DNA of 8,540 bases from assembly GCA_021786915.1 (NCBI GenBank), contig JAJYMP010000166.1, positions 1 through 8,540 of the forward strand, in the 5' to 3' direction. The DNA comes from Chloroflexota bacterium. Its GTDB lineage: Bacteria; Chloroflexota; Limnocylindria; Limnocylindrales; CSP1-4. The position numbers and the translations under genes were made by a program. Below the pieces are notes generated by a model. It did no database searches and was not told where the DNA came from. It saw only the letters and a list, made by a program, of their open reading frames with translations. This document shows, one piece after another, positions 154-8,059 of this stretch. Positions within the stretch are counted from its first letter, which is position 1, and each line of letters opens with the position of its first letter.

Positions 154-1911
154 CTACGCCGCCTTCGGCCGTGGCTCCGCCTCGCTGCCTGGCGGCGCGG
201 CCGACGCGCCGCCGGCGCCCAGGATCCGAGCGACGCTCCCTCCCCGCCCCGTGCGGACGAGGCCGGTGCCGCGCAGTTCGCGCACGGCGGCGGCGAACGT
301 CTCCACGTCGAGACCAAGGTCGGCACGCACCCGGTGTCCCCAGCGCGTCGCGCCGCCGGTCGGCAGTTCCGCGAGCACCCTGCGAGCGACCTCGGACAGC
401 GCGCCGTCGGGCGCGATCGGCACATCGACCGCGATCCCGGCCGGGGTGCGTTCCACGCGCCGGCGGGTGGATGAGAAGCTGATGAGGCCCGCCGCGGCGA
501 GCTCGGTCTCCGCGGCCCACACGACGTTCGCCGGACGCCCGACCAGGCGGTGGATGCGCGACACGTTGGCGGGCCGGTCCACGGGCAGGGCGGCCAGGTA
601 GGCACGCGCCGGCTCCGCGAGGGGGACCGCCGTCCAGCGGCGGGCATCGCGGATCAGGCTGCCCGGGGGCAGCTGCCGGCCACGGGTTGTCGCCGCGGGG
701 AGCGAGCGAGTGTCGGAAGGGCCGATAGCGGGAGCACCGCCATCGCGCTGCGGGGCGGCCCCGGCCCACGGGGCACCCGGTATCGCTGGTTGATCAGGTG
801 GCGTCGGTACGCCCCCGGGCGGGTCATCCTGCGGCGGGTCATCGTCGGGATCGGTCCAGCGCGGCACGTCGAGCTGGATCCGGTCGATCGCCGCCCGCGA
901 CGCACCGCCCACCAGCGCCTGCAGATACCGCATCGTCGTGTCGACCGAGGAGTGGCGCAGCAGCTCCTTGATCTCGATGATGGAGGCGCCCGCGCGGAAC
1001 GCCAGGACCGCGCCGGTGGCACGGAGGGCGTGCGGGGCCAGCCGATCCTGTTCCAGCCCGACGTCCGCGAGTCGGGCGACCACCATGTTGTGGACCGAGC
1101 GGCGGGCGATTGCCGCGAGGGGCTGCAGCCCGACGCGCGCGCGGGCAGCCTTCAGCGCACGTGAGTCACAGGGCAGGAACACTGGGTCCGCCCGGTTGAG
1201 CGTCACCCCCGAGGCGCGCTCGTAGACGCGCTTCCAACGCAGCAGGGTCTGCCACACGTCGTCGGGCAGATCGAGGTGGGCGGGCTTGTTGCCCTTGCCG
1301 ATGAAGGAGGAACGGATCCGCCCGTCGTGGTCCTGGAAGCGGCCCCAGTGCAGGCCGGACGCCTCGCTGCTGCGCAGCGCCAGACGCACCATCATGGTGA
1401 TCAGGGTGTAGTCGCGCTTCGCGGTCAGGCCACGGCGTGGGTCGTCGAAGCTGGCCGCGATGGCGCCCAGGAGCATCTCCACCTGGGCCCTGGTGAGCGC
1501 GGGCGTGTTGGTCTCCGGGAGGCGCGAGGGCAGCGTGATCCCGGCGAAGGGGTTCGCCGCGATCAGCTTCCGGTGCGCGGCCTTCGCATACATGCGCCGG
1601 ACGACCGTCAGTTTCAGGTGCTGCGTCCCCTGCGCGTAGCGGGAGAGCGAGGCGGCGTAGGCGAAGGCGTCGTCCTCGCACGCCACCAGCGGGTCGACGC
1701 CGTGGCGATTGCACCAGCCGAGGTAGGCGGCCATCTCCTGTGCGTAGCAGACGACGGCGTCGTGCGTATTGCAGCTGCGGACCATCTCATCGGCCAGGCG
1801 GCGGATCTCGCCCGAGGGGGCCGGTTCGAGGCGGTCGAACCAGCCGTCGACGATGCCGTCGCGGTCGAGGGGCACGTGGTCGGTGAGCGGGGCGGAACCA
1901 GTGCGGGTCAT
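154..1911 (-). CDS. Tyrosine-type site-specific recombinase (phage-type integrase) with C-terminal winged-helix extension
   Basis: A 585-residue integrase that would catalyse integration or excision of the surrounding element. Residues about 38-125 form a SAM-like core-binding domain. The catalytic domain at about 135-345 has the full set of active-site residues: Arg180 (LALRSSEASGL), Lys206 (GKGNK), His294 and Arg297 (HALRATGA), His320 (LLRHSSVDTTM) and nucleophile Tyr329 (MRYLQ). Typical integrases end soon after the tyrosine; this one continues for about 240 residues. An Asp/Pro-rich linker (350-425) leads to two segments resembling winged helices (about 425-490 and 502-562). The ATG is supported by GGAGG eight bases upstream. 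It is the last gene of a leftward set behind the XRE gene, 98 bp away, and may also have its own promoter at 2086-2113. Function as a recombinase is well supported; the role of the tail is unknown. Confidence 0.93.
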   Translation of the reverse strand: MTRTGSAPLTDHVPLDRDGIVDGWFDRLEPAPSGEIRRLADEMVRSCNTHDAVVCYAQEMAAYLGWCNRHGVDPLVACEDDAFAYAASLSRYAQGTQHLKLTVVRRMYAKAAHRKLIAANPFAGITLPSRLPETNTPALTRAQVEMLLGAIAASFDDPRRGLTAKRDYTLITMMVRLALRSSEASGLHWGRFQDHDGRIRSSFIGKGNKPAHLDLPDDVWQTLLRWKRVYERASGVTLNRADPVFLPCDSRALKAARARVGLQPLAAIARRSVHNMVVARLADVGLEQDRLAPHALRATGAVLAFRAGASIIEIKELLRHSSVDTTMRYLQALVGGASRAAIDRIQLDVPRWTDPDDDPPQDDPPGGVPTPPDQPAIPGAPWAGAAPQRDGGAPAIGPSDTRSLPAATTRGRQLPPGSLIRDARRWTAVPLAEPARAYLAALPVDRPANVSRIHRLVGRPANVVWAAETELAAAGLISFSSTRRRVERTPAGIAVDVPIAPDGALSEVARRVLAELPTGGATRWGHRVRADLGLDVETFAAAVRELRGTGLVRTGRGGSVARILGAGGASAAPPGSEAEPRPKAA

Positions 1912-1971
1912 GTCGAGTACCTCCGGGTCGAGCGATTCGATGGTCCGAACCCGCCCGCCGGAGGTGGCCGC

Positions 1972-1989
1972 GCATCCCGTAGGGGATGC
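1972..1989. repeat. Perfect 7-bp inverted repeat upstream of the integrase
   Basis: GCATCCC (1972-1978) and GGGATGC (1983-1989) pair perfectly around the 4-base spacer GTAG. The hairpin lies in the 98-bp gap between the XRE stop and the integrase start, 61 bases before the ATG. No T-tract follows on the minus strand, so it is not a standard intrinsic terminator. It could be an operator or part of a structured leader. Confidence 0.6.
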
Positions 1990-2009
1990 TCACAACCGAG
2001 GTAGTGTCG

Positions 2010-2606
2010 CTACGCTTCCGTCTTTCCCTCCCGTTTCCGATCGGGAGGGGAGACGGACGCCAGCCGGAGGGGCGGGTCCGGCTGGACCCTATGGAGCCCG
2101 CTCCACTCGTCAAGGTTTGTGCTCGCCGCGTGCTCGACGAGGTCGAAACCGACCGCCCCGCACAGGCGCTGCAGCTCAGCGAGGCTGGGATCGGCGCCCT
2201 GTTCGATCTGGCGCAGGCGTCGCGGCGCGATCCGCGCGCGCCGCCCCGCGGGGTACGGATCGAGTCCGCGGTCGAGCCGGGCCAGTCGAAGCGCGAGGCC
2301 GAGCCGGCGCGCGTCGCCCGCGTCCCGTGTGCGTCCCGAGCGGGCCCGCGGGACCGGCGAGGGCGCAGCGAGCAGCACATCGGCAGACACGCCCAGGACG
2401 GCCGCCAGGCGGAGCAGGTCGGGCACCCGCGGCTCGAGCGCGCCCCACTCCCAGCGGGCGATGACCGACTGGGAATGGCCGAGCGCGGCCCCGAGCGCCG
2501 CCTGCGTCAGGCCCGCCCGGAGGCGCGCGCGACGGAGCCGCTGGCCGAGCGATGCGGGAGCAGGGCTCGGCTCGCGATTCGGGCCGGCCCCCTCAAGGCG
2601 AGCCAC
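2010..2606 (-). CDS. XRE-family transcriptional regulator with two helix-turn-helix domains
   Basis: The protein has a clear Cro/C1-type HTH about 20 residues after the chosen start (from LGQRLRRARLRAGLTQAALG to LGVSADVLL). A second, weaker copy of the same fold follows (from LGLALRLARLDRGL to LCGAVGFDLVEH), recognisable by RLRQIEQGADPSLAELQRLC. Such proteins usually bind operators as dimers and repress lysogeny or element-transfer genes. The start is uncertain. GTG at 2606 overlaps the stop of the upstream gene by 14 bp, as expected for translational coupling. A TTG at 2675 would add 23 residues and overlap by 83 bp. Neither has a strong Shine-Dalgarno sequence. It stands between a metalloprotease gene and the integrase, so a role as the element's repressor is a natural inference. 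A perfect dyad lies just upstream of the GTG. Confidence 0.82.
   Translation of the reverse strand: MARLEGAGPNREPSPAPASLGQRLRRARLRAGLTQAALGAALGHSQSVIARWEWGALEPRVPDLLRLAAVLGVSADVLLAAPSPVPRARSGRTRDAGDARRLGLALRLARLDRGLDPYPAGRRARIAPRRLRQIEQGADPSLAELQRLCGAVGFDLVEHAASTNLDEWSGLHRVQPDPPLRLASVSPPDRKREGKTEA
2026..2049. repeat. Perfect 8-bp inverted repeat at the end of the XRE gene
   Basis: CCCTCCCG (2026-2033) and CGGGAGGG (2042-2049) form a GC-rich stem around an 8-base loop. The hairpin covers the last codons of the XRE reading frame. In the leftward transcript it precedes the second hairpin at 1972-1989. No U-run follows. Confidence 0.6.
2086..2113 (-). promoter_or_regulatory. Candidate promoter for the integrase, inside the XRE gene
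   Basis: On the minus strand TTGACG (2113-2108) and TAGGGT (2091-2086) are separated by 16 bp. This is close to the sigma-70/SigA consensus as used in high-GC bacteria (TTGACN, TANNNT). Transcription would begin near 2079 and give the integrase a leader of roughly 170 bases containing both hairpins at 2026-2049 and 1972-1989. Predicted by eye only. Confidence 0.4.
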
Positions 2607-3000
2607 GGCGTGACGTGCCGATCCGCCACGCGGATCGCAGCGCCTGCTGATCCGCCAGCGGCAGCCACGGGCCAAACAGGATCGCCGCGACCACCCGCTG
2701 CGCGGCGCTGATCACGTGCTCGCGGTCCCCGCGGGACAGGCCCGCGAGGACCGGGTGTAGCGCCATGCTGCGCGCGACCTCGGCGCATACGGCCCCCATG
2801 TTGATCCCCAGCCCGGGCACCTCCGTGGTCGCCCACAGCAGGCCGGCGATGGCGGCCTGGTACGCGGGGTGCCCGGCGTCGGCCGCGTCCGCGGCAGCGA
2901 TCACCACGGCCCGCGGCTGGTCGAGGGCGTCGATCTCGGCCAGCAGGGCATAGACCTGGCTGCGGATGGTGGCGAGGGCGGTGGCGTAGTCGTCCGCCAT
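2593..3000 (-). CDS. Hypothetical protein, 135 residues, in the element operon
   Basis: I do not recognise a family. The protein is mostly Ala-rich helix, starts MADDYATALATIRSQVYALL and ends in a basic Arg/Ser tail (RIGTSRRGSP). The middle (AAIAGLLWATTEVPGLGINMGAV) and the segment HVISAAQRVVAAILFGPWLPL are hydrophobic, but neither is a clean membrane helix. The ATG at 3000 lies 60 bp after the protease stop, without an obvious Shine-Dalgarno sequence. The 3' end overlaps the XRE gene, so the two are probably co-translated. Its place between protease and repressor makes it a candidate accessory or adaptor protein, but nothing in its sequence shows this. Confidence 0.7.
   Translation of the reverse strand: MADDYATALATIRSQVYALLAEIDALDQPRAVVIAAADAADAGHPAYQAAIAGLLWATTEVPGLGINMGAVCAEVARSMALHPVLAGLSRGDREHVISAAQRVVAAILFGPWLPLADQQALRSAWRIGTSRRGSP
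2619..2637. promoter_or_regulatory. Perfect 8-3-8 dyad before the XRE start, operator candidate
   Basis: CGATCCGCCACGCGGATCG is a perfect inverted repeat with 8-bp arms and a 3-bp spacer. It lies 13-31 bp upstream of the GTG start of the XRE gene, within the end of the preceding gene. The direct repeat GATCCGCCA occurs again at 2649-2657. The geometry suits binding of a dimeric HTH protein. In this GC-rich coding context a chance origin is possible. Confidence 0.35.
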
Positions 3001-3014
3001 GTCACGCCGGGCCG

Positions 3015-3043
3015 GTGCCGGGGCGCCCGGGCACCCTCGTGCC
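3015..3043. repeat. Nested palindromes in the gap between the protease and the 135-residue gene
   Basis: GTGCCGGGGCGCCCGGGCAC (3015-3034) is palindromic except for one base pair. Its right arm GGCAC (3030-3034) can instead pair with GTGCC at 3039-3043 across a 4-base loop. These sites fill most of the 60-bp gap between two genes that would otherwise be co-transcribed. They could be an operator, a processing site or two mutually exclusive RNA hairpins. Confidence 0.5.
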
Positions 3044-3060
3044 GCCCGCCGCGCACGGGC

Positions 3061-4464
3061 TCACGCCGGGCCCTCCCCCGCCCCGCCGATCGTTGCCGGC
3101 GTCAGTCCCGCCGTTTCCATCGCCTCGGCGAGGCGCGGGCCGGCCAGCGTGCCCGCGGCCGCCAACGCGTCGGCGACCCGTTCGATGACGGCCCGGCGGG
3201 GTTCCAGCAGGGCGCGGGTCTCGGCCTCGGCGGCCCGGGAGGCGCGCAGCACCGCGGACCAGACGAGCGAGCGTCCCTCACGGGCAAGATGCGTGCGGCG
3301 TGACTCGAGCACGCTCGGGGCGACCAGGCCGATGTCGGGATCGAGGCCCTCGTCGAGCGCATCGCGCAGGTGCCGGGTGGCGACGGTCAGGTCGTGCTCC
3401 GCCCCCAGCATGCGCACGCCCAGCACGAGCTCCTCGCCGATGGGCCCGGCATAGGCGATCAGGACCTGGGCCCGCCAGGTGCGGCTGGTCATCGGGTGGC
3501 GCTCCGCCCAGGCGCGGTCGAGCGTGGTGTGGGCGTTGCCCCGCGCCTGCGGCTCGAGCGTCGCGTAGGCCAGGGCCGCGGGCCCCAGCGTCAGGTAGAC
3601 CGCGACGGCATGGGCGGCCTCGTGGACGGCGAGGTGGCGCACGGCGTCGGGACCGAGCACACGGGCGGGCGTCGAGCGGCGATGGCGGGCGAGGACCTCG
3701 TCGAGGTGCGCCTGGTCCACCGCCGCCAGGCCGTCGGCGAGGGCGAGGCCGTAGGCGGAGGTGACCATGGCGCGGATGTCGCTGCCGGTCGAGTCGGGCG
3801 TGCGCCGCGCCGCGGTGGCGACATCGAGGGGGCCTGCGCTCGGCACCTGGCCGAGGAACCGGCCGAACATCACCTCGCGCGTGGGTTCGTCGGGCGCCTC
3901 GAGCTCGATCAGCACGGCGAAGCGGCGCCGCAGGCCCGGGTCGATCGACCAGGACGACTCCGCCGTGAGACCCAGGACCATGGGCCCGGGGCGCGTCGAG
4001 AGGCCGTCGAGCGCGGCCATCAGGGCACTGCCCCGCCGGCGCACGCCGTCATCGGAGGTCGCCGCCCAGCGCATGCGTCCGGCCAGGTCGACCTCGTCGA
4101 TGATGACGATCGCGGGGACGCCGGCCAGCGCGTCGAACGCCGCGCCGATCGCCGTCGCGTCGTCCTCGCCCGCCGAGATGACGTACACGGGCAGGTCGGT
4201 GTCGCTGGCCAGGGCCTTGGCGAGCAGCGTCTTGCCCGTGCCGTGGGGGCCCGCAAGCAGCACGGACGTGATCGGACTGGTGCCCTCCGGCCCGGCGGCG
4301 TGCCGCGCCAGCGCAAGGTGCGCGGCCAGCTCGCGGCGTGGTCGCTCATGGCCGATCACCTCGTCCCAGCCCACGCGGGGACCGCGCCAGCGGCGGGCCT
4401 CGAGCCCATCGTCCGGCGGGTCGGGATCGGGGGCGTGGGGGGACGGGCGGTCCTCGACGGTCAT
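3061..4464 (-). CDS. Soluble FtsH-like AAA+ ATPase with M41-type zinc metallopeptidase domain
   Basis: A 467-residue ATP-dependent protease of the FtsH type. The AAA+ domain (about 32-265) has Walker A GPHGTGKT (72-79), Walker B IVIIDEVD (119-126) and an arginine-finger region GLRRRF (177-182). The peptidase domain (about 270-455) has the zinc motif HEAAH (281-285), AGPIGEELVLG (339-349, like the FtsH AAEELVFG motif) and the third ligand Asp358 in GAEHDL, so catalysis should be intact. Classical FtsH is about 600-650 residues with two N-terminal membrane helices. None is present here; the N-terminus is short, acidic and Pro-rich. The segment after SAG at 97-99 is shorter than in FtsH and lacks the aromatic FVG pore motif. 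The reading frame is open upstream, but ATG 4464 has GAGGT six bases before it. First gene of the leftward set. Confidence 0.88.
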   Translation of the reverse strand: MTVEDRPSPHAPDPDPPDDGLEARRWRGPRVGWDEVIGHERPRRELAAHLALARHAAGPEGTSPITSVLLAGPHGTGKTLLAKALASDTDLPVYVISAGEDDATAIGAAFDALAGVPAIVIIDEVDLAGRMRWAATSDDGVRRRGSALMAALDGLSTRPGPMVLGLTAESSWSIDPGLRRRFAVLIELEAPDEPTREVMFGRFLGQVPSAGPLDVATAARRTPDSTGSDIRAMVTSAYGLALADGLAAVDQAHLDEVLARHRRSTPARVLGPDAVRHLAVHEAAHAVAVYLTLGPAALAYATLEPQARGNAHTTLDRAWAERHPMTSRTWRAQVLIAYAGPIGEELVLGVRMLGAEHDLTVATRHLRDALDEGLDPDIGLVAPSVLESRRTHLAREGRSLVWSAVLRASRAAEAETRALLEPRRAVIERVADALAAAGTLAGPRLAEAMETAGLTPATIGGAGEGPA

Positions 4465-4545
4465 GCGCGCACCTCGTGGGTCGAACCAGGTGAGTGGGTC
4501 GCGCGTACGACACCAGAGCGGAGGGCCGCGCGTCCAGCGTCCGGG

Positions 4546-4590
4546 CTGCGCGCGTTGCGCCGGCTGCGCACATTGCGCAGATTGGGCAGG
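4546..4590. repeat. Five-unit 9-bp tandem repeat with internal dyad in a divergent intergenic region
   Basis: Five consecutive 9-bp units begin at 4546, 4555, 4564, 4573 and 4582, with consensus YTGSGCNNN. Units three and four together form the perfect inverted repeat CTGCGCACATTGCGCAG (4564-4580, 7-bp arms, 3-bp spacer). The array lies between the divergent starts of the protease (4464) and the excisionase-like gene (4643). Iteron-like repeats in such a place commonly bind a regulator, an excisionase or a replication initiator. I see no convincing promoter hexamers in the same spacer. Confidence 0.65.
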
Positions 4591-4642
4591 CCGAACGGCG
4601 CCGGATCCTGGACAGCCCGGCGACGGCGCCGACGCTCCGGGC

Positions 4643-4831
4643 ATGACGACACCCCCGCTGCTCACGACGACGCAGGTCGCGGCACGCTTGGGTGTGAGCT
4701 CGGAGTTCGTGCGGCAGGAGGTGCTGCGCGGGCGGCTCATCGCCCAGGTGCTGGCCAGCGCGAGCGGTCGCCGCATCTACCGGATCAGCGAGGCGGAGCT
4801 GCGTCGGTATCGCGAGCGGTACGGGGGGTGA
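4643..4831 (+). CDS. Small excisionase/MerR-type helix-turn-helix DNA-binding protein
   Basis: A 62-residue protein with the pattern of the excisionase HTH family. LLTTTQVAARLGVSSEFVRQ forms the HTH, LRGRLIAQVLASASGRRIYR the wing, and ISEAELRRYRERY the closing helix. Members bind att or promoter DNA and bend it, directing the recombinase toward excision, or act as small regulators. It is transcribed away from the protease-XRE-integrase set, and its upstream region contains the 9-bp repeats. The ATG was chosen because the domain begins a few residues later. No Shine-Dalgarno sequence is evident, and the open frame upstream is a GC-driven shadow. It has the size of phage Xis proteins; whether it truly acts as Xis is inference. 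Confidence 0.8.
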   Translation: MTTPPLLTTTQVAARLGVSSEFVRQEVLRGRLIAQVLASASGRRIYRISEAELRRYRERYGG

Positions 4832-4918: not shown

Positions 4919-4935
4919 CACGCGTGACTGGATCG

Positions 4936-4991
4936 CTGCGCCGTCGTCGTCGCCCCGACCTTGGACCGCGCGTTCGCCAGGTGGTGCTTCA
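4936..4991 (-). pseudogene. Short remnant of a LuxR-type HTH gene (left copy)
   Basis: The minus strand reads KHHLANARSKVGATTTAQ, the recognition helix and following part of a LuxR-family HTH. Over 56 bases it matches 5659-5714 at 50 positions without gaps. No start, N-terminal part or proper stop is attached, so it cannot encode a working protein. It begins 13 bases after the DUF1801 stop and has the same orientation as the right copy. Confidence 0.7.
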
Positions 4992-5004: not shown

Positions 5005-5481
5005 TCAGCCCGCGGCCTTCTTGACGAGCTCGGCGATCCGCCTCTCCCCCGCGGCCGACAGGCTGGTCAGGGCGAAGGCGACCGGCCACATCTCCCCCTC
5101 GTCGAGCCGCGCGTCGGGCTGGAAGCCGAGCGTCGAGTAGCGGACCTTGAACTTCAGCTTCGCCTGGAAGAAGCAGACCACCTTGCCGTCCCTCGCGTAC
5201 GCCGGCATCCCGTAGAACGTCCGGGGCACGAGGTGCGGCGCGGCCGCGAGGACGAGCTCGTGGACGCGCGCCGCCATCGCCCGGTCGTCCTCGGGCAGCG
5301 CCGCGATCGCGGCCAGGACGTCGGCCTCGCCGGCTGTGCGTGCCTCTTCCGGGGTGAGCTTCGCCGCCTTCTTTCGCTCTCGGATCGTCTCCTTCATCGC
5401 GGCGAGCTCTTCGTCGCTGAAGACGTCACCGGACGTCCTGGCCGAACTGCTTCGCTTCGTGGTTGTCTTCGTGTCCGCCAT
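5005..5481 (-). CDS. DUF1801 domain-containing protein (YdhG/YdeI-like)
   Basis: A 158-residue cytoplasmic protein. The first 25 residues are Thr/Ser/Lys-rich and probably disordered. A helical stretch (residues about 22-50, EELAAMKETIRERKKAAKL) precedes the DUF1801 fold. The best signature is VPRTFYGMPAYARDGKVVCFFQ split around residues 94-115, then KFKVRYSTLGF and a C-terminal LDEGEMWPVAFAL...ERRIAELVKKA segment. Relatives include the Bacillus YdhG iron-chaperone-like proteins, but most actinobacterial members have no proven function. The ATG at 5481 is preceded by GGGA about 11 bases upstream. It stands alone between two fragments of a LuxR HTH sequence, so it may have been inserted into, or duplicated together with, a regulator gene. 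Confidence 0.85.
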   Translation of the reverse strand: MADTKTTTKRSSSARTSGDVFSDEELAAMKETIRERKKAAKLTPEEARTAGEADVLAAIAALPEDDRAMAARVHELVLAAAPHLVPRTFYGMPAYARDGKVVCFFQAKLKFKVRYSTLGFQPDARLDEGEMWPVAFALTSLSAAGERRIAELVKKAAG

Positions 5482-5496: not shown

Positions 5497-5775
5497 TCAC
5501 TCGGCGCGGCGCCGGAGCGGCGTGATCGCGCCAGCCGTCTCCGTGGACTGACGCGGACCATAGCCATTCGGGCCGGAATCTGCTTCTCCGAACAAGTTTG
5601 ACTGCACCTGAACGGAGCCGCGAGGCTCGGGCAGCCGCGGGGCCAGGATCCATACGAGCTGCGCGGTCGTCTCCGCCCCCACCTTGGACCGGGCATTCGC
5701 CAGGTGGTGCTTCACCGTCGAGTGCGACAGTCCGAGGCGGTGGGCGGCCGCCTTCTCCGACCCGGCGACGCGCCT
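5497..5775 (-). pseudogene. LuxR-type HTH regulator fragment (right copy), lacking a usable start
   Basis: On the minus strand from 5769 the frame reads VAGSEKAAAHRLGLSHSTVK, then HHLANARSKVGAETTAQLVW and ILAPRLPEP. This is a good LuxR/FixJ HTH, which normally binds DNA as the output domain of a regulator. The frame stays open to a stop at 5497, but the residues after PEP look unrelated. Upstream the expected first helix (RQxxVLxxxV) is replaced by RQPHSSHRR. The only ATG in frame lies inside the divergent ATPase gene. No receiver or sensor domain is present. It is best read as a decayed gene; a short functional protein from a non-ATG start cannot be excluded. Confidence 0.6.
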
Positions 5776-5851: not shown

Positions 5852-5893
5852 AGGCCGAGATATGGCCTATCTTGTGCCGCAGCCCGGCCTATC
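5849..5893. promoter_or_regulatory. Operator-like inverted repeat plus third half-site before the ATPase gene
   Basis: GATAGGCC (5849-5856) and GGCCTATC (5864-5871) are perfect 8-bp arms around GAGATAT. A third identical half-site, GGCCTATC, lies at 5886-5893, exactly 22 bp from the second, about two helical turns. The arrangement overlaps the -10 and start region of the predicted promoter. It looks like an operator with cooperative binding; the binding protein could be the ATPase itself through its winged helix (inference). Confidence 0.6.
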
Positions 5894-5907
5894 CTCGAGG
5901 TGTCGCC

Positions 5908-7029
5908 GTGTCCAGGATCGTGAGGACGTTTCCGACCGGCGGCCCGGTGCCGAGCGAGGATCTCGTCGATCGCGAGGACATCCTCCGGGACCTCTTCGCA
6001 CGAACCTTTGAGCACGGCAACTCTGTGTTGCTCACCGGCCCTCGTCAGGTTGGCAAGACCAGCGTCATCGACGAGCTGCTTCGGCGTGTCCGGAAGCGCG
6101 ATGGCTGGGGCGTGTACATCGACTGCTCGCGGACGACCGGAGACGAACGGGAACTCGCCGATCTGATCGCGCGTACGACGTACGACGACGTGTCGGGAAC
6201 CGTCGGAGCATTCGCCAAACTGCGGAGTCTCCTCGCAGGCGTACCGAAGCCCGTCCTCTATCAGTCAGACATCGATCTTGCCCTGACGTTCCACGGACGT
6301 GAACCTCGCCCCACATCGGCCCTGCTCGAGCGGGCACTGCGCCTGGCGGACGACCTCGCGTCGCAGAAGTCGAAGCGGTGTGTCGTCGTGTACGACGAGT
6401 TCAGCGACCTGCGGAACGTATCCCCGACGATCTTCACTCGAGTTCGGGCGATCCTCCAGCACAGCATGACCCACACGGCCTACGTGTTTATGGGTTCCGA
6501 AGTCAGCGTGCTCGAACGGCTCTTCAAGGATCCCCAGTTCATGCCTTTCGGGTTGGCGGTTCCGGTCGTTCTCGCGGCACCAGACGCGGAGGCTTGGCGC
6601 CGCTACATCGAGCAGCGGTTCGCGAAACTCGACGTTCCGCTCGAGGACGGCGATGCGGACGCACTCATCGAGTTCACGGGCGGCCACCCCCGCCACTTGA
6701 TGGAGGCATGCGAGCATCTGCTGACCATCCGGAGCCTGAGCCCCGAAGCTCGCCGCGCCGTTGAGCTCGCCGAGCAGAAGACATACGACAGCCTTCGCAT
6801 CAAGTTCGATGAGATCTGGCGGCGACTCGACGAGCCTCCGGGTACTCGGGTCACCGCGGCACGCATCGCTCACGGGAGGCCGATCTACGGCCCCGGACGG
6901 TCGACGACATCTGTGCGACGGACGGTGGAGAAGCTCGAGAGGGAGGGGATCATTCGCCGGACCGGCCGCGGAGCCTACGCGTTCGCCGAGCCGCTCTTCG
7001 CTCGATACGTCCGAGAGCTCACCTCCTGA
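5908..7029 (+). CDS. Archaeal-type/STAND-like ATPase with C-terminal winged helix
   Basis: A 373-residue cytoplasmic ATP-binding protein of the Arch_ATPase group. Walker A is GPRQVGKTS (44-52) and Walker B VVVYDEF (159-165). The sensor motif GSEVSVLERLF (196-206) is followed by FMPFG and by TGGHPRHL (257-264), the order typical of this family. Residues about 305-370 (SVRRTVEKLEREGIIRRTGRGAYAFAEPLF) form a winged helix. These ATPases are widespread orphan genes whose cellular role is mostly unknown. GTG 5908 was chosen because GAGGTG lies about five bases before it and the conserved part begins soon after. The frame also opens at a TTG at 5872, which lacks such support. Base composition is clearly lower in GC than the element to its left. 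It is monocistronic and convergent with the next gene. Confidence 0.88.
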   Translation: MSRIVRTFPTGGPVPSEDLVDREDILRDLFARTFEHGNSVLLTGPRQVGKTSVIDELLRRVRKRDGWGVYIDCSRTTGDERELADLIARTTYDDVSGTVGAFAKLRSLLAGVPKPVLYQSDIDLALTFHGREPRPTSALLERALRLADDLASQKSKRCVVVYDEFSDLRNVSPTIFTRVRAILQHSMTHTAYVFMGSEVSVLERLFKDPQFMPFGLAVPVVLAAPDAEAWRRYIEQRFAKLDVPLEDGDADALIEFTGGHPRHLMEACEHLLTIRSLSPEARRAVELAEQKTYDSLRIKFDEIWRRLDEPPGTRVTAARIAHGRPIYGPGRSTTSVRRTVEKLEREGIIRRTGRGAYAFAEPLFARYVRELTS

Positions 7030-7101: not shown

Positions 7102-7587
7102 TCACTCAGGGCTGACCCGCGACGGTGAAATAACGAACACGCCGATCTGTGTCGTTCCGTCGGCAAGATAGACCGGAATGCTGGTCTGTTGACCAGCGGC
7201 GGCCATCGCATCGACCTTCTTCTGCCAGGCTATTACCTCGGAGGGATTGGACACGTTGCCACCGGTCGCAGCGTCCAGGGCAGTCCTCAGCACGTAGCCC
7301 ACCCGCCCGTTCGTAGCCTCCACCAGGATCAGGTCGGGAGCAGAATCCGGGGAGTTCGCCTCCTCAAGGCTCCCATATGTGAGCCCGGATGCGTTCTTCG
7401 GGTAATTCGGCTGCACGATGGGAGCAGGAGCACCCCCGGGGGTCGCCGCAACCCCGGCAGGCGGCATGATCTGTGCTCCGATGGAGGCGAGCGCGGTGCC
7501 GCCGAGACCGCCGACTACGGCCAACGCAGCCAGGCCGCCAGCTATGGCCGGCAGGCGCTTGATCGTCCTTCCGACATTCGCTCGCAT
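7102..7587 (-). CDS. Exported hypothetical protein, 161 residues
   Basis: The N-terminus (MRANVGRTIKRLPAIAGGLA...GGLGGTALAS) has a basic region and a hydrophobic core of about 20 residues, so the protein is secreted or anchored by an uncleaved helix; a cut after ALA (residue 34) is possible. A Pro/Ala/Gly-rich linker (42-62) leads to a small domain at about 65-155. Its pattern TYGSLEEANSPDSAPDLILV, then NGRVGYVLRTAL, then IPVYLADGTTQIGVFVIS resembles a family of actinobacterial exported proteins of unknown function. ATG 7587 has GAGGGG six bases upstream, within the end of the preceding gene, and only 10 bp separate the two. It is probably co-transcribed from the promoter at 8107-8136. Confidence 0.8.
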   Translation of the reverse strand: MRANVGRTIKRLPAIAGGLAALAVVGGLGGTALASIGAQIMPPAGVAATPGGAPAPIVQPNYPKNASGLTYGSLEEANSPDSAPDLILVEATNGRVGYVLRTALDAATGGNVSNPSEVIAWQKKVDAMAAAGQQTSIPVYLADGTTQIGVFVISPSRVSPE

Positions 7588-7597
7588 GGTCGTCCCC

Positions 7598-8059
7598 TCA
7601 CGAGTTCTGATTCGGGGTCATGAAAGTGTAGTAGCTGTTGTAGCTATAGCCGTTCCAGGCCTTGGTTATCCCTTCACTCGACCACACGTCCACGATGAGG
7701 AACTGGAGGCAGCCCGTGGCGTTGATCCGGGATCCCACTGGCATGGGACTGCTGTTGTATGTCCATGTGCCTGTACACCAAAGGACCCCGTTCCTGAAGG
7801 TTCGGGGCACTGCGCCCACCCAGCCATTCTGGGCGGTGCCTCCGCTATACGGTCCGACTGTGGTCGTGGCCTCAACCTCGTGTGATGTGGACGGATCCGT
7901 CCAGATGAATGCCTGATTCTGGTACTGGATCCCGGCGACGGTGTAGTAGCCATACGAACTGAACGCGCCTCCCGCGTGGGCGGTTCCGCTGAGCAGCCCG
8001 AAGACAAACGACGTGCTCAGCGCCACTGAGGCCAAGAGACGCAACCGCCTCGCTCCCAC
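7598..8059 (-). CDS. Secreted hypothetical protein, 153 residues
   Basis: A classical signal peptide is present: basic MGARRLR, a hydrophobic core to residue 24, and SGTAHA just before a likely cleavage at residue 29. The mature part is about 124 residues, rich in Tyr, Trp, Asn, Ser and Thr, as is common in extracellular beta-rich proteins. It has two cysteines (Cys95 and Cys117) that could form a disulfide. No enzyme motif is visible, and I do not recognise the family. The start is GTG, preceded by GAGGAG with an 8-base spacer. A good promoter lies about 50-75 bp upstream. First gene of a two-gene unit with the next exported protein. Confidence 0.8.
   Translation of the reverse strand: MGARRLRLLASVALSTSFVFGLLSGTAHAGGAFSSYGYYTVAGIQYQNQAFIWTDPSTSHEVEATTTVGPYSGGTAQNGWVGAVPRTFRNGVLWCTGTWTYNSSPMPVGSRINATGCLQFLIVDVWSSEGITKAWNGYSYNSYYTFMTPNQNS

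Follow-up and report, generated by a model that had tools for sequence, protein, structure and literature searches.

Lambda CII is a target of the host protease FtsH. In the integrative element ICEBs1 cleavage of the repressor ImmR by the protease ImmA opens the xis promoter, according to passages of PMC9956884, which also report, citing Leffers and Gottesman 1998, that lambda Xis is degraded in vivo by Lon and FtsH. ICEBs1 ImmR/ImmA and the immRA pair of TnSmu1 are further alike in setting a helix-turn-helix (HTH) repressor beside an HEXXH metalloprotease within an integrative element (passages of PMC10233336 and PMC9956884). The locus described here lies in an 8.5-kb stretch of Chloroflexota DNA (contig JAJYMP010000166.1; the whole stretch is referred to as the window), the left edge of which is 153 bases beyond the integrase gene int, and is like ImmR/ImmA in outline, in that int and an XRE-type regulator, a putative repressor, are on one strand and a xis-like gene is divergent. 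The open-frame list places int, the XRE gene, a gene for a 135-residue protein and one for an AAA+/M41 protein (the protease) leftward and the Xis-like HTH gene divergent from them, so that the five-gene set drawn in an earlier note on this DNA is present on the strands given there, with family matches for four (Table 1). The locus differs from ImmR/ImmA in that its protease is of the AAA+/M41 type, a scan of ten window proteins at E 0.01 having found no ImmA/IrrE match, in its additional 135-residue gene, in the two HTH domains of its XRE protein and in that the protease gene rather than the repressor gene adjoins the xis-like gene and the divergent region; cleavage is hypothetical here. Turnover of lambda Xis and CII is alike in the use of an FtsH-type protease on phage regulators but differs in that the enzyme there is the membrane-bound housekeeping one of the host.

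The most surprising fact of the analysis is that the whole protease family is without pore loop 1, the segment by which FtsH grips its substrates. The loop is missing from all eleven aligned members, the position of FVEMFVG in FtsH being a seven-column gap in the window protease and a five-column gap in its relative P0009, and is present in all 25 aligned FtsH-type controls, 23 of which have an aromatic residue at the FVG phenylalanine. These controls were hand-picked from the listed protease matches, which are the best 120 of 287 drawn from 7,995 scored candidates. Membership of M41 is clear, with the AAA domain PF00004 at 65.5 bits and Peptidase_M41 at 36.9 bits against a cut-off of 29.9 in Pfam, the HEAAH motif and the third ligand D358, and the FtsH model TIGR01241 matches at 114.1 bits. 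With FtsH, i-AAA and m-AAA proteases the protein shares the AAA-M41 domain order, the Walker motifs, with K78 in Walker A, the arginine-finger positions, HEXXH and the third-ligand Asp, but it differs from them in its chain of 467 residues, in the lack of an N-terminal membrane segment and of pore loop 1, and in belonging to a family ten of whose eleven members lack the sensor-1 Asn. The zinc ligands, Walker A and B and the arginine-finger positions are retained in all eleven, down to about 30% identity. The split in profile scores is unclean, since P0010 and P0073, when left out, scored under the best CDC48-type proteins, and so it is the alignment over pore loop 1 and not the profile scores that sets the family apart from FtsH.

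From the alignment the protease seems not to be an FtsH orthologue and, lacking pore loop 1, probably neither threads nor unfolds its substrates. The proposal of the earlier note, that an ATP-dependent protease of FtsH type removes the XRE protein, is therefore doubtful, a canonical unfoldase being unlikely with pore loop 1 deleted across the whole family. The accompanying description of the protein as soluble holds, the best 19-residue hydropathy mean that begins in its first 60 residues being 0.38, and hydropathy gives no N-terminal transmembrane segment of the FtsH kind. A start at 4776, given at the same time, was rejected as merely the earliest ATG in that frame, and from the lengths (463-467 residues) and starts of the five closest relatives, which begin at the same place as ATG 4464, the start has been corrected to that codon. 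Plant FtsHi proteins are likewise FtsH descendants that lost half of the mechanism, but there the protease site was lost, whereas the window family has kept the peptidase site and lacks the pore loop (passages of PMC9020784). The absence of pore loop 1 beside an intact zinc site makes the family a natural test of the AAA+/M41 ring as a selective, non-threading protease. Across titles, the starts of abstracts and some passages of the literature, no paper was recognised on an FtsH-type protease in an integrase/XRE module or on an M41 protein without pore loop 1.

Linkage in relatives was judged from agreement in size and source of the longest contig per database cluster, which shows linkage and cannot show absence; the queries were the protease, the 135-residue protein and the integrase, and the protein database gives no gene neighbourhood. 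On this basis protease P0002 is linked to integrase P0128 (5,765-base contig, ncbi; both 88% identical to the window proteins), protease P0005 to integrase P0129 (15,301-base contig, ena; 70 and 78%), protease P0004 to the 135-residue relative P0122 (21,373-base contig, lgn; 84 and 87%) and integrase P0131 to the 135-residue relative P0125 (82,571-base contig, jgi; 54 and 67%). Because the members of a pair share a contig and have diverged from the window to a similar extent, closely so in the first three pairs and less so in the fourth, the integrase, protease and 135-residue genes are taken to be inherited together in near relatives, beyond chance neighbourhood. For the 135-residue protein of the window itself the database lists a contig of 18,845 bases. 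None of six distant proteases without pore loop 1 (P0006-P0010 and P0073) was linked to any of the 23 listed integrases.

We tentatively favour, as possible though short of probable, an explanation in which the five genes form an integration and excision control module and the AAA+/M41 protein is a local, selective and non-threading protease acting on one of the module's own DNA-binding proteins. We infer that Int would recombine an integrative element or the remnant of one, that the divergent Xis-like protein would bias the reaction towards excision and that repression of the divergent promoter region would be the expected role of the XRE protein. ATP binding would gate access to the zinc site of the protease, and selective cuts might then fall in either of its likeliest, putative targets, in XRE to give induction, as ImmA does on ImmR, or in Xis to lock integration, with the 135-residue protein perhaps presenting the substrate. 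The data do not discriminate between XRE, Xis and a host protein as the target. What stands of the integration and excision module as first proposed is the arrangement of int, XRE and metalloprotease on one strand with xis divergent, together with the pairwise linkage; no result links the protease to XRE in particular.

Several points weigh against the module so described. No listed protease is linked to the 82,571-base contig of P0131 and P0125, whose identities to the window also differ more; among the listed matches 2 of 11 protease clusters are linked to an integrase and 1 of 11 to the 135-residue protein; and the linkage evidence in relatives does not extend to XRE or Xis. As to mechanism, a family in which 10 of 11 members have lost this Asn of sensor 1 could hydrolyse ATP weakly or not at all, the controls P0059 and P0100 retain the loop but carry Leu in place of the aromatic, which shows that the aromatic by itself is not invariant, and the proposed action is built on sequence and an AF2 monomer model with a pTM of 0.55.

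The protease could instead be cargo that shares the leftward transcription unit, a defence, anti-defence or host-directed effector and not a regulator of the module, which we judge somewhat unlikely. The 82,571-base contig, carrying integrase and 135-residue protein without a linked protease, would suit cargo, as would the match of the AAA domains of the defence ATPase IetA to the protease (best E 4.6e-15, 53.9 bits), but since the best of these spans the AAA part alone (residues 61-262) and FtsH models such as TIGR01241 score higher, the match reads as general AAA similarity. The two integrase-linked relatives have retained the protease, and its gene adjoins the divergent region, which would be the place of a regulator rather than the usual one of cargo. 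For an action on the Xis-like protein and not on XRE, whereby Xis would be removed after transfer and integration locked, the breakdown of lambda Xis by host FtsH and Lon (Leffers and Gottesman 1998, as cited in passages of PMC9956884) is a precedent and the protease and xis are divergent neighbours; the lambda reaction, however, uses canonical FtsH, whereas the window family is without pore loop 1, and this target is in our view unlikely.

Returning to the module with a non-threading protease, its broadest form would make the small soluble AAA+/M41 clade an ATP-gated class of anti-repressor protease, controlling a tyrosine-integrase element via repressor or excisionase and relying neither on ImmA/IrrE peptidases nor on the RecA/LexA route, a generalisation that must be called distinctly unlikely. 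Should the protease regulate the element, it would be a second protease type among the proteolytic switches of integrative elements.

The integrase belongs to the tyrosine recombinases, with its Pfam match above the cut-off of 27.1 bits, and R180, K206, H294, R297, H320 and Y329, which we take to be the catalytic set of these enzymes, are invariant in 22 of 22 aligned sequences. It also carries a C-terminal extension of about 240 residues (about 350-585) that had gone unmentioned. The extension aligned in all six long members and, among the 23 listed relatives, occurs only in the five closest; the other 18 are without it, 17 having 355-372 residues and one 442. At E 5 Pfam gives the extension two sub-cut-off matches of regulator type, TrmB (E 0.17) and HVO_A0114 (E 0.22), and comparison of the XRE protein with the integrase found no similarity (E 0.53). 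The XRE protein has two stretches each of HTH_3 and HTH_31, and its start is ambiguous between GTG and TTG. The divergent gene matches HTH_17 at 34.9 bits (cut-off 27), phrog_66, 'excisionase and transcriptional regulator', at E 7.6e-7, and TIGR01764, 'excise', at 26.6 bits, slightly under its cut-off of 28.8. Pfam, PADLOC and PHROGs, searched at E 0.01, returned nothing for the 135-residue protein, and its one NCBIfam hit is weak (17.3 bits against a cut-off of 361); the protein is predicted to be all-helical at low confidence, the model having a mean pLDDT of 58.3, too weak for a fold search.

Table 1. Features of the integrase-protease locus and its right flank, in window coordinates
Feature	Position	Strand	Evidence
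Tyrosine recombinase/integrase, 585 residues	154..1911	-	PF00589, 46.4 bits
XRE-family regulator, two HTH domains	2010..2606 (GTG) or 2675 (TTG)	-	HTH_3 and HTH_31
Orphan 135-residue protein	2593..3000	-	six protein-database entries, its own included
Soluble AAA+/M41 protein, 467 residues	3061..4464	-	PF00004 and Peptidase_M41; HEAAH (H281, E282, H285), D358; no pore loop 1
Divergent intergenic region, with 18-bp tandem repeat at 4544-4579	4465..4642		TRF and repeat search
Xis-like small HTH protein, 62 residues	4643..4831	+	HTH_17, TIGR01764, phrog_66
57-bp direct repeat, copy 1, LuxR-HTH-like coding	4935..4991		89% identity to 5658-5714
57-bp direct repeat, copy 2, within an apparently truncated LuxR-type HTH frame	5658..5714		GerE, 20.6 bits, under cut-off 23.5

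Because the genes are tightly spaced, with 60 bases between those of the protease and the 135-residue protein, an overlap of the latter with the XRE start and 98 bases from XRE to int, it is plausible that the four leftward genes form one transcript. The int, 135-residue, protease and Xis frames are supported by a third-position GC of 0.89-0.93, which exceeds the 0.67 and 0.72 of the two overlapping frames tested; in the XRE frame first- and third-position GC are alike (0.84 and 0.85). Of nine tandem repeats in the window the one with the highest TRF score (56) lies in the divergent region, which is 178 bases long; this repeat has TTGCGC cores and is a possible operator, binding site or Xis-arm site. 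A promoter scan gave no match in 4465-4642. Scans of the window returned no Rfam family and no tRNA.

To the right of the module the two copies of the 57-bp direct repeat have sharp edges and a local score of 84, where 100 mononucleotide shuffles reached 30 at most, with no third copy in the window. On the minus strand the repeat encodes part of a LuxR-type HTH, and its six differences, four of them synonymous and two within one codon, suggest to us copies from two related genes and not drift after one duplication. Between the copies lies a DUF1801-like gene (5005-5481; 19.3 bits, below cut-off). The pair may be the trace of an attachment site, a one-gene unit or mere fragments of LuxR genes. 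The GC content is 70-78% across the module and 61-66% right of 6 kb, and an element boundary near 5-6 kb is plausible because GC falls there. Neither conjugation nor phage structural genes were found by Pfam and PHROGs among the proteins scanned in these 8.5 kb.

An old and possibly immobile remnant, in which the M41 protein is a decayed FtsH copy and no regulatory proteolysis takes place, would accord with a candidate attachment repeat that is just 89% identical and has no third copy in the window, as with the absent pore loop 1 and the sensor-1 Asn lost in 10 of 11 members. Retention of zinc ligands, Walker A and B and arginine-finger positions throughout the family would be unexpected under simple decay, however, and the intact integrase active site in 22 of 22 sequences and the high third-position GC of four of the five frames also speak against it, which leaves decay quite improbable.

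The wider searches gave distant matches. Evidence of a virus origin was not found, IMG/VR having no relative of the protease or of the 135-residue protein and one match to the integrase, at 27% identity. Among plasmid and phage records the protease had 695 and 31 matches respectively, each below 60% identity and none over more than 80% of its length; the integrase had 160 and 76, of which the 12 listed for each kind were at 25-30% identity. A scan of genome contigs yielded five distant protease relatives, which align to parts of it at 28-35% identity. With the integrase profile at E 1e-30 there were no hits in 296 genomes of the phylum of genome G002 (Phytohabitans, Actinomycetota) or in 195 of that of G004, a search with no known positive. 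In the G002 phylum the protease profile at E 1e-85 found 2 of 396 genomes, both with long frames (665 and 682 residues) provisionally taken for ordinary FtsH, and the integrase sequence at E 1e-12 found 21 of 396, at 25-32% identity and none past query residue 353. No recognisable member of the protease family was thus seen in the genome samples of the two phyla, a negative without weight of its own as no positive was known.

In the lower-GC part right of the module, an AAA_16/ATPase_2-type ATPase is encoded at 5872-7029 on the + strand. The leftward frames at 7102-7587 and 7598-8059 have N-termini that by eye resemble signal peptides and no Pfam match at E 0.01. A plasmid of Arthrobacter sp. 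FB24 has an unannotated stretch to which the product of 7598-8059 is 39% identical.

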